Assembly (NCBI GenBank): GCA_945882415.1
Contig: CAMCWC010000006.1
Span: 1 to 64,000 of the forward strand
Length of the DNA stretch: 64,000 nt
Direction of reading: 5' to 3'
From: Chthonomonas calidirosea
Lineage (GTDB): Bacteria > Armatimonadota > Fimbriimonadia > Fimbriimonadales > Fimbriimonadaceae
Positions within the stretch are counted from its first letter, which is position 1; each line of letters opens with the position of its first letter. The position numbers and the translations under genes were made by a program. Shown piece by piece: positions 10,421-19,585 of this stretch. Below the pieces are notes generated by a model. It saw only the letters and a list, made by a program, of their open reading frames with translations. It was not told where the DNA came from and made no database searches.

Positions 10421-10445
10421 CTCAATGGCGGTAAGTTCCATTGAG
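10421..10445. repeat. Perfect 8-bp inverted repeat at the hicA relic start
   Basis: CTCAATGG and CCATTGAG are perfect inverse copies separated by 9 bases. The repeat begins 28 bases after the amidase stop, and its right arm contains the TTG start of the decayed hicA. It could be an old toxin-antitoxin operator or an amidase 3'-end hairpin; there is no U-tract. Confidence 0.5.
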
Positions 10446-10624
10446 CAAGTCTGATTTTGTGTGGGACCTACGGAAGAACAATTGTGAGCGTGTCCGTCAG
10501 GGCAAGCATGAGATTTGGATCAACCCGGCGAATCAATTGACCTCGCCGGTAACGCGCCACCAAAAAAACTGGCCGATAGTTGGTCAGGTAAGTCTGTCGG
10601 GAACTGGGAAAAACGGAGGCGTGA
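10441..10624 (+). pseudogene. Decayed hicA-type toxin gene
   Basis: The first frame reads SKSDFVWDLRKNNCERVRQ, then GKHEIWINPANQLTSPVTRH, the conserved first half of HicA mRNA interferase including the active His in HEIW. The second half continues in two other frames: KKLADS at 10563-10580, then LVR-stop-VCRELGK ending at TGA 10622-10624, which matches the HicA tail. Repair would need one base added at the A7 run (10562-10568), one T near 10580-10581, and reversal of the in-frame TAA at 10589-10591. The frame read straight through runs on to 10737 with unrelated sequence. It is probably inactive. No intact hicB lies next to it. Confidence 0.7.
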
Positions 10625-11102
10625 CATTAGGCGTGCAAAGCAACGCCAACGCTTTGAGAATGAGCAAGGCCCGAGAGAGCATCTTGGGCAAATCGTTGGA
10701 AGGCGCAAAATACAGACGAAGCGCAGAAGAGTGGTGACTCAAAGTTTTGAAAGTTAAGCGCGGAGATGCATTGCTAGTCGACAGATTAATACCTAAGTTT
10801 CAAATCAGAAGTAGCAGCGTCTCGCCATCATGGTCCGGTCGAGAGGAACGATGGCGTCGTTCAAAAACTTGGGCTGCTGATAAATCTCATGAAGCAAAAG
10901 TTTTAAGCTAATGAAGAAAAAAGTCTGTGAGGACACAGGTGGGCGGACAGGCTTACATCTGGCGCAGATGGCGGTGAAACGAGGGGAGCCAAAGACGGAT
11001 ACTCTGATTCATTATTTGAACCTTCGGGTGAGTTATGGAGTCAGACCAAAAAATCGACAAAGTTGCAACATGATTACCTTTAAAGTCAAGAGGTGACAAA
11101 TC
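10625..11102. other. Gene-poor stretch after the hicA relic
   Basis: About 480 bases with lower GC than the surroundings. A 61-codon open frame at 10911-11096 has no recognisable features or convincing start context and is not called. I see no RNA gene or repeat here. The likely reading is decayed accessory DNA. Confidence 0.5.
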
Positions 11103-11778: not shown

Positions 11779-13554
11779 CTACCAGAACTCTTGGTAGCGT
11801 GGTCCGCTAGACTTTGGCGGCGTCGATGGGGGGATGATCTGCAGAGTGACAGGTATTGGAAAGTCGGTTCCAATCAGAATCGCTTGACCCGCTGCAAGGG
11901 TCGGAACAAAGGCAGCAGCACTTCGGTCGAGGTCCCCCGCCGCTCGCTCAACGATTTCTCGGTCCTCAGGATTGGTGAGTCTATGAACCAGATACGCACC
12001 CATTTGACTCAGAATTCCCTGACCAATGTCGCGGGGACGCTGAGTCGCTAGGCACAGAGTGAGTCCGAACTTCCGGCCTTCTTTTGCTATCAACTCAAAG
12101 GAATCAAGCTTCAGTTTGCTCCCTTCTTCTCCAAGAGATTTTCCAATGAATTGATGGGCCTCGTCTAGAAAAACAATCAATGGTTGCGAGACAAGCTTAT
12201 TCTTTCGACCGAAAAGTAAGAGCTGACGTCCTATACTGTTGACGAAAATTTCTCGGATGTTATTCGAGAACGACAATTCTTTAAGTGAGAGCACAAGTAC
12301 CGATAAAGAATCGTTAGCTAAGAATGGGAGCAGTACGTCCATAAGAATGTCTTTCTTGTCCCCTGGTCGAAACAGACAAGCGAACTCGGAAGATGATACG
12401 ATCTGTTCTACCCTTGATACTAAGTTAATACAGTAGCCAAGATCGCCTTGGTGGACGCCCCCGTACCTGTTCTGGCTTGCGCCTTGACCGCTCGGCCAAC
12501 AACATTCAAGCTGAATTTGCTCAGCCAAGGCTGCAATTTCAAATTCCGATGCAGGTTTATCTATCAATTCCGCAAATGCTCGCGAAGCGTTCTCATACGG
12601 AGCTCTTGTGGACTCTGGTTTCGGAATATTCCGACCTTCACCGACTTGGGTTAGTAAGGCTCGAGCAGCTTGTTCGTGTGATGCGTATTTCGCTGGATTC
12701 CCTGACACAAGCCTTGCGTAATGTAGAGTCTTGAGTGACTTGATCGCGGCCCGGAGCTTCGGCGCCTGCGATTGAGGGGCGGGTTGGAATAGTGCGAACA
12801 AATCGCCCTCTAGGAGGCGCTTATATGGCAGCACGACCTCGAATGAACCTCGTTGCTCCGCAGCAGAATCCGAGTTCACGTGAATATGCTGGATATGCGG
12901 CCCATTCAGTGTGTGAAACTCGCCGGTTGGATCTATCAGGAGAATCTTCGACTTGTGCCGACCAGCTTCCTCAATAAGCCGCGCAAGCGTCCAGCTTTTA
13001 CCTCCGCCGGTGGTCCCCAGAACTGCGCAGTGCCTACCGAAAAGGCTTTCCGGTGCGACACGGATGAGGGTCTCAGACGAAAAGGGCAGTGTGGCCAACG
13101 TCAGGAGTTTCGCACCACCTTCCGTGTCTGCAAAGCGAGTGGACTCCGCGAGCCACTTTATCAACAAGGGATGAGCAGAGAAGCACCTCGCCCCTAGTCT
13201 AGGGTGGTGAGGCACACCAGGCTCGATCTTCCCAGATGCAAGGTCTACTGAAGCGACGAGCGAAACAATTCCTATAGGATGCACGTCTGGTCTGCCGCCA
13301 AGATCTTCCTCAACCGATAAGCGCTCTCTTTCTGGCAATCTGACAGCGGTAATGCGTCCAAAAACCGCCGCATGCCCTGATTCTACGACGACAAACTCGC
13401 CAACCCTTCCTGCTTCTAACTGGTGTCCATGATGCCACCGTGATCCAGGGGCAGCAGCTTGAGGCAGGTTGACCTTAACGGTGTTTCCTGCGATCTCGAT
13501 GACTGTCCCGATTGCCCTGTCGGCATCAAACGGATAGATTGGCAAGGTACTCAT
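11779..13554 (-). CDS. herA: HerA-type FtsK/HerA ATPase of a SIR2-HerA defence system
   Basis: 591 residues. An N-terminal HAS-like beta-barrel (about 15-110, with GTVIEIAGNTVKV and GEFVVVESG) precedes a RecA-type motor. Walker A is GTTGGGKS at 180-187 and Walker B is VFLDEAHQF with Asp464 and Glu465. A sensor segment CLATQRPRDI and an arginine region LTNPEDREIVERA follow. HerA proteins form hexameric DNA translocases. Next to a SIR2 gene they form an antiviral complex in which HerA assembles with the NADase. The ATG overlaps the SIR2 stop (ATGA), indicating coupled translation. No HerA-linked NurA nuclease is present, which supports the defence rather than DNA-end-resection assignment. Confidence 0.9.
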   Translation of the reverse strand: MSTLPIYPFDADRAIGTVIEIAGNTVKVNLPQAAAPGSRWHHGHQLEAGRVGEFVVVESGHAAVFGRITAVRLPERERLSVEEDLGGRPDVHPIGIVSLVASVDLASGKIEPGVPHHPRLGARCFSAHPLLIKWLAESTRFADTEGGAKLLTLATLPFSSETLIRVAPESLFGRHCAVLGTTGGGKSWTLARLIEEAGRHKSKILLIDPTGEFHTLNGPHIQHIHVNSDSAAEQRGSFEVVLPYKRLLEGDLFALFQPAPQSQAPKLRAAIKSLKTLHYARLVSGNPAKYASHEQAARALLTQVGEGRNIPKPESTRAPYENASRAFAELIDKPASEFEIAALAEQIQLECCWPSGQGASQNRYGGVHQGDLGYCINLVSRVEQIVSSSEFACLFRPGDKKDILMDVLLPFLANDSLSVLVLSLKELSFSNNIREIFVNSIGRQLLLFGRKNKLVSQPLIVFLDEAHQFIGKSLGEEGSKLKLDSFELIAKEGRKFGLTLCLATQRPRDIGQGILSQMGAYLVHRLTNPEDREIVERAAGDLDRSAAAFVPTLAAGQAILIGTDFPIPVTLQIIPPSTPPKSSGPRYQEFW

Positions 13555-14705
13555 AAGTTAAAGAGTTGATTTGTCCGGGCCTGATGAAGTTCTTCCTCCG
13601 TTAGAGCTACCAGGTCGGGCATATGTTCAACAAAGTCCTCAAATCGTGCGGATACTGCATTGATCCTTACATCGCCACCATCGATGAGGCTGATCAGCGC
13701 ACGATGAACGTCGTTGGTTGAGCCCTCAATTGACAAGCGGGGATCCACAACGCTACACTTTAATCCAACATTGGATCGAACGGCGGCGAGAATTGGCTCG
13801 TTAAGGTGTTTGTCGCTGAATCCGTATCCAATGACGAGGAGGCCAGTATTAGGCATTCGCAGCGCAGATTGAAAACGAGACATCACCTCGAAAAATGGTT
13901 GTTGAAACGAAGATTCGTACTTTCCAACTCTCGGATAAACCATCACAGGATTTTCAGTTTGTCGTCGAATAACTTGCCCATTGCTTTGTCGCTCCCAATC
14001 GACAGAACCGTGAAGCTTAAGCAGCTGAAAGACATTCGGAATAAAGGCGAGATTATCAGCCTCAGTATCGCGTCTCACTAGGTCATAGCTAAAATACGAA
14101 CCATCAAAGATTTGCGGAGAAGAATGACTGAATCCATCGATGACCACGAAGCCCATATTTGCTGCTGCGGTCTCAAAACAAAGATCGTAATTGGTCGTAA
14201 AGAGACGTAGTCGAGGCTGACGACTTGAGCGTCGTGCGACTTTACGGAGAAACATCTCGTGAACAGGCAAGTTATGGCCTTCACCGGCGAACAGACAAGC
14301 ACTTTGTATTGTTCGTTCCGCTTCTGTCACAAACTCGGAGACGATATCGTCCGTATGGAGAGCGGTATACATCTGACAGCGACTCATCAGTGCCTCAATA
14401 TTCGACTCTTCTTTTGGATAGCCAACTCTATCAAGGACTGTTTCAAACATTTTGAGGTGTCTGGAAAGCTCCCATAAATCATTCATTGTTGGTGCAATAT
14501 TAGCGCCGTCACCGTTGAGGCATAAACTTGTTCCTAATCCGGACAGAACAATCAGATTTTCAGAAAGTAAGACTTCGGCAATCTTCGAAAGCCAGTCGCT
14601 CGAATCTATCGGTGGATTTACCCATGCTTTCTGGGACCGTACTTTCACTGCTGTTATCAATTGCGTCTCTGAAGCGGCCTGGGTAAGCGCGATTTTATCA
14701 GCCAT
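13551..14705 (-). CDS. SIR2-domain NADase of a SIR2-HerA defence system
   Basis: 384 residues with a SIR2 fold: LIVLSGLGTSLCLNGDG at 51-67 (nucleotide-binding GxGxS-like loop), LFTTNYDLCFE with Asn172, KLHGSVDW with the catalytic-type His232, and VIGYGFSDKHLNEPIL near the C-terminus. Defence SIR2 proteins hydrolyse NAD+ after phage detection and stop growth. The first ~35 residues are outside the core. The start ATG 14705 lies three bases after the stop of a small P-loop ORF, and the stop overlaps herA by four bases, so all three are probably one transcript. Confidence 0.88.
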   Translation of the reverse strand: MADKIALTQAASETQLITAVKVRSQKAWVNPPIDSSDWLSKIAEVLLSENLIVLSGLGTSLCLNGDGANIAPTMNDLWELSRHLKMFETVLDRVGYPKEESNIEALMSRCQMYTALHTDDIVSEFVTEAERTIQSACLFAGEGHNLPVHEMFLRKVARRSSRQPRLRLFTTNYDLCFETAAANMGFVVIDGFSHSSPQIFDGSYFSYDLVRRDTEADNLAFIPNVFQLLKLHGSVDWERQSNGQVIRRQTENPVMVYPRVGKYESSFQQPFFEVMSRFQSALRMPNTGLLVIGYGFSDKHLNEPILAAVRSNVGLKCSVVDPRLSIEGSTNDVHRALISLIDGGDVRINAVSARFEDFVEHMPDLVALTEEELHQARTNQLFNL

Positions 14706-14708
14706 TTT

Positions 14709-15110
14709 TTACCGTACCATCCTGAAATTGCCACTGCCTACCCTACGCGCGCCGAAATATCCCTGTATGGAGTTGGCATGGAAGTAGCCGTCACTAAATT
14801 TCTGACTCGGCATACTTTTCGGGGCGATGAACATCTTTTCCTCTTGACAACATAGCGTTTTGGAATGGCGGCGGAATTGCGTTGTTTCGCCGATCATGTT
14901 CTTTAGCCGCGTTCGGCTTTCGCTTCCCGAGGCTCCTCCAATCAAAGTTCCCGCGCTCGAAGCCTGAAGCAACTCCATAAAGCGGGTCTTGCCCAACCAG
15001 TTCGGGCCGCAGACTTCCGGTCCAGTAGTTGCGCCTTTAACGAGGAAAGGCTTTCGGTGTTGAAGGTAGCTCTTACCACTACGGATATGAATATTCTTCA
15101 TAATTGGCAA
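14709..15110 (-). CDS. Short P-loop ORF upstream of SIR2, probable AAA ATPase fragment
   Basis: 133 residues. The segment VCGPNWLGKTRFMELLQ contains an intact Walker A pattern (GxxxxGKT), and the text before it resembles the N-terminus of AAA15/OLD-like ATPases. Nothing after residue ~60 looks like the rest of such an ATPase: no Walker B and no signature motif. Either an ATPase gene was truncated by deletion and now ends directly before SIR2, or the small protein is a real leader component. Its stop is 3 bases from the SIR2 ATG, and its final codons supply the AGGATGG sequence that may serve SIR2 as ribosome site. Confidence 0.45.
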   Translation of the reverse strand: MPIMKNIHIRSGKSYLQHRKPFLVKGATTGPEVCGPNWLGKTRFMELLQASSAGTLIGGASGSESRTRLKNMIGETTQFRRHSKTLCCQEEKMFIAPKSMPSQKFSDGYFHANSIQGYFGARRVGSGNFRMVR

Positions 15111-15319: not shown

Positions 15320-15502
15320 TCAATCGCGGCGGTTGTCTGCTTCCTTAGCGACTCCTTTGAAAGGAGTGCCATCTTGCTTCTGGTCCATGAATTGGCCCGT
15401 TTCCGTGTCGCGCTTGGTCCATTTCCCATTTTGCGGGTTTTGAACTTGAGATCGATCCTTCACTGAGCCGAGTCTGAACCCATTACCAGTATTCTTTGCC
15501 AT
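15320..15502 (-). CDS. Conserved small basic protein
   Basis: 60 residues from ATG 15502. Sequence blocks GNGFRLGSVKDRSQVQNP, WTKRDTETGQFMDQKQDG and TPFKGVAKE match a small protein family I recall as widespread among bacteria and of unknown function. It is hydrophilic, rich in Lys, Gln and Gly, and without membrane or metal motifs. It sits alone in the accessory island, upstream of the SIR2-HerA transcript on the same strand with ~200 bases between. Good codon-level conservation supports a real gene. Confidence 0.7.
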   Translation of the reverse strand: MAKNTGNGFRLGSVKDRSQVQNPQNGKWTKRDTETGQFMDQKQDGTPFKGVAKEADNRRD

Positions 15503-15772: not shown

Positions 15773-17350
15773 CTAGAACGTCCCGCCGACGCTGAATTCC
15801 CATCCCTGCTGCCGTCGTTCGAATCCACGGCTTGCGTTAAAGCCCGAAATGTACGAGATCGAAAGGGCTTCATTACGTGTCGGGAAGATCACGCTGAGCC
15901 GGTAGTCGTCCCAAATGTTGCGCTCATTTCGAGCAGAGCCGGAATAGTTGGTGTACGGGGTGAAGTACACGTTCGCGGTAGCTCTCAGCTTTAGATAGGG
16001 CAGGAACTGTTGTGCTCTGGAATCAAGGCGTAGAAGGGCTCTAGCAATGGTGTTCGAGCTTCCGAATACCTTCGCTGATCTTGAGTGGTAGCCACCCATC
16101 TGAATCGAGAAGTCCAGCGTTGGCAGGGTGTCGTGCAGGTTCTTTGATTGCAAGCCACCTAATTTGACCTTGCCGCCTGCATTGTAGGGAATCAGTTGCT
16201 TTATCGTCGCGACGCCCAAGAATGAAGGGCTATTGAACTGCTGGTCGCCATCGATCGTGATGCTCGTTCTGAACTGAGTCGGGTGGTTTCGATCCGCTTC
16301 GTAGATTGAGCTGAAGTCAAACTTCAACTTAGAGTTGGGATCTTGTGTATTGGTGCTGATGACCGCATCCGAAACATCAAAATGCGTCCAGACATGCTGC
16401 CCGAAAAGGTACGCCGAAAGATCGGGAGCAAGATTTTTTGCAGAGAAGTTAAAGCCCAGACGTTGCACATCGACAACTTTTCGGACGGCTTTCTTCTCAA
16501 TTAATCCGGTGTCCTCATTCAGGACGAACTTATCGACGGTCTGATTCAGCCGTACACCGTTCTGTTGTCCGACCGACGTCGTGGAAAAGGACGCAGCGCG
16601 AACATGCTCGAGCACGTTTACACGTTGCTTTTGTAGAACAGGTGGTGTTCCATCAAGTGAAACGGTCGCGTCTTTGCGCGTACCAAAGACGTACCGCTCG
16701 GTGGACAGCGAGGAGAGTCCCTTTTTTGTAAAGTCGGGTCCGGGGATCAGCGCTTTAATTGTTTCCGAATCGAGATCGAGAAGGACCATGTACGCATCGG
16801 CACCGTTTTTCACAGTGCGTTGCAGCGTGTCCGCCGAGCTGTCGTCTAGGATCTGCCTTCCATCCACCTTAGCTAGCTCACGTAACTTGTATTCAACATT
16901 CTTTGCACCAGCGGTAGTAACTTCAAAAGTCTTTGTGAGGAAGATGCTGGCGGAACTCGGACGAAGAACCTCAGAAATTTCGGGATTTTTGACGAGAACT
17001 TCAGAAGGATACGAGTAGGTGTGATCCTTGTTTTCAAGCTTAAGAACGAGAATCCGCGGAAGTACCTTCTTCCATAAGTTGCGAATTCTTTCAGCGAACT
17101 TGACTTCGCCGTCCTCGGCTTTGTCCTTCAGAATTGCTTTCAGTTCAACAATTTCTTCGGCGGTGAGCACCGATGCAATGGGCGCGGTAATTGTCGCAAT
17201 GGGAGCGGAAGCCGCGCCATTGTAGGCAGTTGCAAAGGTTGCACCGAGTTTGGCGGTGACAATGGATGTCTGGGCCGGAGCACTCAAGGTCGTCGCCGGT
17301 AGCGAGAGAAGGTCGATGGCTGGCAACGAGTAAAAAATTGGCACGCACAA
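15773..17350 (-). CDS. Putative outer-membrane or secreted beta-rich protein, start uncertain
   Basis: Up to 525 residues, family not recognised. Residues ~60-340 look soluble, and the last ~200 residues alternate like barrel strands (LRATANVYFTPYTNYSGSA, LSVIFPTRNEALSISYISG), ending EFSVGGTF with terminal Phe. The N-terminus is odd: a TAG stop precedes TTG 17350, and both TTG 17350 and GTG 17344 lie inside a perfect hairpin that is followed by a T-tract. The real start may be a later TTG (17326), or the 5' end of the gene has been lost. VPIFYSLPAIDLLSLPATTLSAPA looks like a signal peptide missing its basic head. Confidence 0.55.
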   Translation of the reverse strand: MCVPIFYSLPAIDLLSLPATTLSAPAQTSIVTAKLGATFATAYNGAASAPIATITAPIASVLTAEEIVELKAILKDKAEDGEVKFAERIRNLWKKVLPRILVLKLENKDHTYSYPSEVLVKNPEISEVLRPSSASIFLTKTFEVTTAGAKNVEYKLRELAKVDGRQILDDSSADTLQRTVKNGADAYMVLLDLDSETIKALIPGPDFTKKGLSSLSTERYVFGTRKDATVSLDGTPPVLQKQRVNVLEHVRAASFSTTSVGQQNGVRLNQTVDKFVLNEDTGLIEKKAVRKVVDVQRLGFNFSAKNLAPDLSAYLFGQHVWTHFDVSDAVISTNTQDPNSKLKFDFSSIYEADRNHPTQFRTSITIDGDQQFNSPSFLGVATIKQLIPYNAGGKVKLGGLQSKNLHDTLPTLDFSIQMGGYHSRSAKVFGSSNTIARALLRLDSRAQQFLPYLKLRATANVYFTPYTNYSGSARNERNIWDDYRLSVIFPTRNEALSISYISGFNASRGFERRQQGWEFSVGGTF

Positions 17351-18893: not shown

Positions 18894-19076
18894 TCAGTCC
18901 TTGCGCTCGCGAAGCTGATCGGCAGGAATTCGAACGACCTTGCCATCTTTGAAGAGCACAATCGCGGTGTTTGTTTGAATGGCGATTTGTCTTGCCATTT
19001 CAGCCGCTCGCCGCATGGCGATGAGCGAATTGCGGAGGTCCGGGTTTCTTGCCTTCCAAAGTTCTTCTTGAGTCAT
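18894..19076 (-). CDS. Small partner of zeta-like kinase, putative antitoxin
   Basis: 60 residues from ATG 19076, which overlaps the stop of the kinase gene (ATGA). The sequence MTQEELWKARNPDLRNSLIA, AAEMARQIAIQTNTAIVLFK and DGKVVRIPADQL is helical and then beta, of a type repeatedly found next to zeta-toxin-like kinases. The antitoxin role is inferred from position and size; the order is toxin first, opposite to many type II modules. A strong terminator follows. Confidence 0.65.
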   Translation of the reverse strand: MTQEELWKARNPDLRNSLIAMRRAAEMARQIAIQTNTAIVLFKDGKVVRIPADQLRERKD

Positions 19077-19585
19077 TGGTTTTCGCCCCATTCCAGCATA
19101 ACAGGTTCGCCGTCTGCATTATCGTATAGGGCCCAATCGCTTACCGCTGGTCGGTAGAATTTTTGAAAGTTGGACCATCCGGACGCGAATCGGCGGCGGA
19201 TCACTTCCTCGGGAACGTCGTGTCCGCCGTGTCGAACGCGTTCGGCCACTCGCGCAATTGCGGTTTCAACATTCGGAAGGCGAAGGAAGATCAAGCTCAC
19301 CCAATAGCCTTGGGCTTTCCACTGGTTGATGTGCCGTAGATAGCCGAGACCCGACAGCGTGGTTTCAAACGCAAAACTCTCGCCCCGCTGTACGCATTGA
19401 TCGATTTCGCTCAGCATTAACCGCGCCGCTTTGACTGCGGCGGTTTCTGGGGCGAACGGCGCTAGGCCCGCCGCGATCAGATCGGCATTGATGAAGCGCG
19501 GCAAGCCGGCCTCGGCGGGCAGGAACGATCTCGCGAAAGTCGTCTTGCCCGCTCCGTTTGGCCCGGCGATGATAATGATTCTCAT
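19073..19585 (-). CDS. Zeta-toxin-like P-loop kinase
   Basis: 170 residues. It starts RIIIIAGPNGAGKTTFARSF with Walker A at 8-15, then FINADLIAAGLAPF, GESFAFETTLSGLGYL (the ETTL segment typical of zeta/AAA33 kinases) and VAERVRHGGHDVPEEVIRRR. Zeta toxins phosphorylate UDP-N-acetylglucosamine and block cell-wall synthesis; small free-standing homologues may have other substrates. The ATG overlaps the GH20 stop by one base (TAATG). A kinase that may use UDP-GlcNAc coupled to a GlcNAc-releasing hexosaminidase is a suggestive pairing. Confidence 0.85.
   Translation of the reverse strand: MRIIIIAGPNGAGKTTFARSFLPAEAGLPRFINADLIAAGLAPFAPETAAVKAARLMLSEIDQCVQRGESFAFETTLSGLGYLRHINQWKAQGYWVSLIFLRLPNVETAIARVAERVRHGGHDVPEEVIRRRFASGWSNFQKFYRPAVSDWALYDNADGEPVMLEWGENQ

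Follow-up and report, generated by a model that had tools for sequence, protein, structure and literature searches.

The Sir2-HerA antiphage system is presented in a review as a two-component system (PMC12198126). The NADase pocket of DSR2 is composed of N133, Y134, D135, and H171, and these residues are conserved in Sir2-HerA (PMC11263360). Here, we analyzed a SIR2-HerA locus on the minus strand of a 64,000-nt stretch of DNA, hereafter the window, from the Armatimonadota bacterium Chthonomonas calidirosea. Judged from its sequence, the locus is an intact, ordinary two-gene SIR2-HerA antiphage cassette. A 133-codon frame that directly precedes the cassette, termed the orphan frame, is very probably not part of the system.

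The orphan frame, SIR2, and HerA are arranged sequentially on the minus strand. The orphan frame extends from a TTG start at 15110, through a first ATG at 15101, to a TAA stop ending at 14709, and is composed of 133 codons counted from the TTG or 130 from the ATG. Three bases, AAA, separate its stop from the ATG of the SIR2 NADase gene (14705–13551, 384 aa). The TGA of SIR2 ends at 13551 and the ATG of the HerA ATPase/translocase gene (13554–11779, 591 aa) is at 13554, forming an ATGA overlap. This geometry had been described exactly in the first-pass annotation, which also pointed to the segment GPNWLGKT in the orphan frame; the segment is present and conforms to the Walker A regex [AG]x4GK[ST]. 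The SIR2-HerA cassette sits in a stretch of lower GC content than the surrounding DNA. No repeats or att-like ends were found around the island, and no tandem repeats were found.

The SIR2 protein matches the Pfam family SIR2_2 (E = 3.7e-11) and the PADLOC SIR2 model (E = 4.2e-95), and its sequence also matches the solved SIR2 proteins 8yhx and 8j4u. It contains the motifs GLGTS at residue 56, TTNYD at residue 170, and KLHGS at residue 230. The latter two provide the asparagine, tyrosine, aspartate, and histidine of the NADase pocket. These residues, N172, Y173, D174, and H232, are invariant across eight homologues and, by motif, are likely the equivalents, in the same order, of the four DSR2 residues. 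The HerA protein matches Pfam DUF87 (E = 1e-18), the PADLOC HerA model (E = 1.8e-170), and solved antiphage HerA proteins. Its Walker A motif (GTTGGGKS at residue 180) and Walker B motif (FLDEAHQF at residue 462) are both intact. The SIR2-domain gene is directly followed by the HerA gene on the same strand. The Pfam and PADLOC matches, together with those to solved proteins, bear out the earlier identification of the two genes as a SIR2-HerA defence pair. By analogy with the solved systems, a HerA hexamer would dock on a SIR2 oligomer, and upon infection the assembly would deplete NAD+ and attack DNA.

The closest relative is Chthonomonas sp. UBA2017 (G021; loci L003, L030, and L031), with protein identities of 74% for SIR2 and 76% for HerA. 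Third-position differences between the two genomes amount to 65–68% and second-position differences to 13% in SIR2 and HerA. As most of the DNA change falls at third positions, both genes are maintained under purifying selection. The nucleotide similarity covers only positions 11779–14599 of the window: one end coincides exactly with the HerA stop, and the other falls within SIR2, 106 bases from the start of that gene. For the DNA upstream of SIR2, no similarity to UBA2017 was found (best E = 0.71). Because the similarity ends inside SIR2, the orphan frame lies outside the conserved unit. The position before SIR2 is occupied in UBA2017 by an unrelated truncated AAA_35 ATPase, which matches profile positions 4–246 of 331. 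UBA2017 likewise has a TAA just before the SIR2 ATG. Thus, a frame that ends there need not be co-translated with SIR2, and the closeness of the orphan frame to SIR2 may mean no more than that the short spacer ahead of that gene includes a TAA.

The genes preceding SIR2-HerA were compared in 86 loci, comprising 80 from a genome scan and six plasmid loci. The SIR2 frame is intact in 84 of the 86, which form the analysable set, and a HerA match comes next in each of the 84. The nearest upstream frames in these 84 loci vary in size, distance, and family; the families include T5orf172, HsdS, type ISP, HsdR, YgjP, DEAD helicase, PIN, GNAT, and HTH-IrrE. A restriction-modification gene is often found upstream of SIR2-HerA. 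Nothing like the orphan frame recurs upstream across the 86 loci, and the best tblastn match of the orphan frame to them, with an E-value of 0.35, does not exceed chance. The first-pass annotation had raised the possibility of an accessory third component not described for the system, and had proposed a search for homologues recurring directly upstream of SIR2-HerA. None occurs in the 86 loci or in UBA2017, and the proposal is not upheld for a frame that has no homologue and lies outside the stretch shared with UBA2017.

Two features of the compared loci were observed in addition. A T5orf172/MUG113 gene is a recurrent upstream neighbour in the set, on the same strand as SIR2 (L036, 4663–5871; L052, 4676–5872; L067, 3357–4550, provisionally assigned because it begins like the L052 gene; and L077, 614–1627). 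In L052, L067, and L077, this gene and SIR2 share a few bases. The long N-terminal extensions of four SIR2 homologues contain no fused P-loop domain. One of them, in a Planctomycetota MAG (L070, 402–2333), carries an N-terminal HTH_31 domain (4.6e-10) in frame with SIR2, possibly a fused regulator.

The orphan frame occurs only once in the genome. It has no match in Pfam, NCBIfam, PHROG, or PADLOC even at an E-value of 1, and no significant family match beyond the Walker A regex was found. Its best resemblance in the PDB is to ABC ATPases at an E-value of 1.1, which is not above chance. The best non-self match across 291 genomes of the phylum lies antisense to a HicA gene and has an E-value of 2.8e-4 per genome, which is within the chance range over 291 genomes. 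Whole-genome searches of 40 SIR2-HerA genomes gave a best E-value of 0.033, no better than chance, and no homologue above chance was found in plasmids and phages. Several candidates were rejected. An apparent resemblance in genome G048 is to the antisense strand of a HicA gene and does not account for the frame. Among the viral matches L018–L023, that in L018 lies opposite a phage ORF, and the same 44% match recurs in the others. Derivation of the motif region from a tRNA or a piece of one was also discarded, as Rfam gave no match and the alignment to tRNAs of the same genome did not rise above background, with a score of 13 where the 95th percentile is 14.

The surroundings of the cassette in the window were inspected as well. 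When the flanks were translated in six frames and compared with Pfam for traces of pseudogenes, only a weak HicA remnant emerged, an apparently damaged HicA-like frame at 10441–10737 on the plus strand (Pfam HicA, E = 0.011). On the minus strand, a 60-codon gene at 15320–15502 (MAKNTGNGFRLGSVKDRSQ...) matches phrog_12550, a family of unknown function (E = 6.3e-22); it is single-copy in the genome and was not found in other SIR2-HerA loci. A 525-codon ORF at 15773–17350, also on the minus strand, has no Pfam or NCBIfam match at an E-value of 1 and a best PHROG E-value of 0.23, and a search of 19 further genomes of the genus gave no relative. A zeta-toxin-like kinase of 170 codons lies at 19073–19585 on the minus strand (Pfam Zeta_toxin, 1e-8) and has the Walker A sequence GPNGAGKT.

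The coding potential of the orphan frame was assessed by several measures. The 615 bp preceding SIR2 were subjected to 3000 dinucleotide shuffles. On the strand of the orphan frame, 3.1% of the shuffled sequences contained 135 or more consecutive codons without a stop, and 2.8% matched the Walker A regex in one frame or another. None of the 3000 had a Walker A match inside an open run of 130 codons or more, which makes the orphan frame unusual, with the caveat that it was selected from 64 kb of sequence. Of the 702 stop-to-stop frames in the window that reach 50 residues or more, 15 contain the regex, and several of these 15 are not real genes; taken by itself, a Walker A match is only weakly indicative of an ATPase. 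The GC content by codon position is flat in the orphan frame (0.47/0.48/0.58), in contrast to that in SIR2 (0.57/0.39/0.43), and the second-position GC is low in SIR2, HerA, and the neighbouring genes. Under a codon model trained on the other genes of the window, the annotated frame outscores the other five over residues 1–55, whereas residues 56–130 are not coding-like. Inspection of the sequence before the orphan-frame ATG revealed no Shine-Dalgarno-like sequence, and SIR2 is preceded by AGGATGG. A promoter scan of the minus strand upstream of the orphan frame found no sigma-70-like site. AlphaFold2 run on the single sequence yielded no fold, with a pLDDT of 36.6, although for an orphan such a value is not very informative on its own. 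A genuine orphan gene, too, would lack homologues and be modelled poorly from a single sequence.

There is a roughly even chance that the orphan frame is a chance open frame, and a sizeable though lesser probability that it is a remnant of another gene beside the cassette. One specific origin is the N terminus of a truncated RecF/OLD/ABC-like ATPase, whose surviving start and promoter would now drive SIR2-HerA; a truncated ATPase with a promoter driving the pair was the other possibility raised in the first-pass annotation. Read by eye, MKNIHI...GPNWLGKTRFMELL looks like the strand, P-loop, and helix found at the N terminus of these ATPases, and residues 1–55 are the most coding-like part of the frame. 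The ABC ATPases at the head of the PDB matches and the truncated ATPase in UBA2017 point in the same direction, but the latter belongs to another family. This origin is unlikely given the lack of any match in the four family collections, of a longer ATPase relative in the 291 phylum genomes and the 40 SIR2-HerA genomes, of a consensus upstream promoter, and of a folded model.

A decayed N terminus of a type III Mod methyltransferase is an improbable source. Two genomes of the same family encode a Mod N terminus to which the frame aligns without gaps over 73 residues, at 30% identity. Against a profile built from 69 Mods the frame scores 6.7 bits, and one of 5000 shuffles of it scored higher. 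GPNWLGKT would then be an altered form of the Mod motif G.NW.GK and not a P-loop; this weak match suggests that a P-loop reading of the segment is not compelled. The frequent presence of restriction-modification genes before SIR2-HerA is consistent with such an origin. However, the profile match does not reach significance after correction for the number of families, the frame lacks EGDNLEVL and DPPYNTG, the most conserved Mod motifs, with APKS at the DPPY position, and such a methyltransferase lies nearby in only one of 87 SIR2-HerA loci. It is more improbable still that the frame encodes a functional, lineage-specific small third protein, co-translated with SIR2-HerA and tuning or restraining it, for example as a regulator. 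The three-base spacing, the long open frame, and the Walker A-like motif would suit such a protein, but the frame is conserved neither in the 86 loci nor in UBA2017, and the lack of a Shine-Dalgarno-like sequence before its ATG and its flat codon-position GC also argue against it. The reading we favour remains an ordinary two-gene cassette with an extraneous frame upstream.

The locus adds one more SIR2-HerA pair, from the little-studied phylum Armatimonadota, and lends no support to a three-gene version of the system. It also illustrates that a Walker A regex match within an orphan frame can suggest a component that genome comparison does not support. Compared with type III restriction-modification systems, the orphan frame is weakly similar to the Mod N terminus, gap-free around G.NW.GK, but is missing DNLEVL and DPPY, and the likeness loses significance after multiple testing. 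Compared with described SIR2-HerA (Nezha) systems, the present pair differs in having an Armatimonadota host and an unrelated orphan frame upstream. It is also distant in sequence, matching the NCBIfam antiphage models far below their equivalog cut-offs. Nevertheless, it shares with these systems both genes, their order and overlap, the motifs, and the PADLOC models, and its two proteins are relatives of those in the complexes 8yhx and 8j4u.
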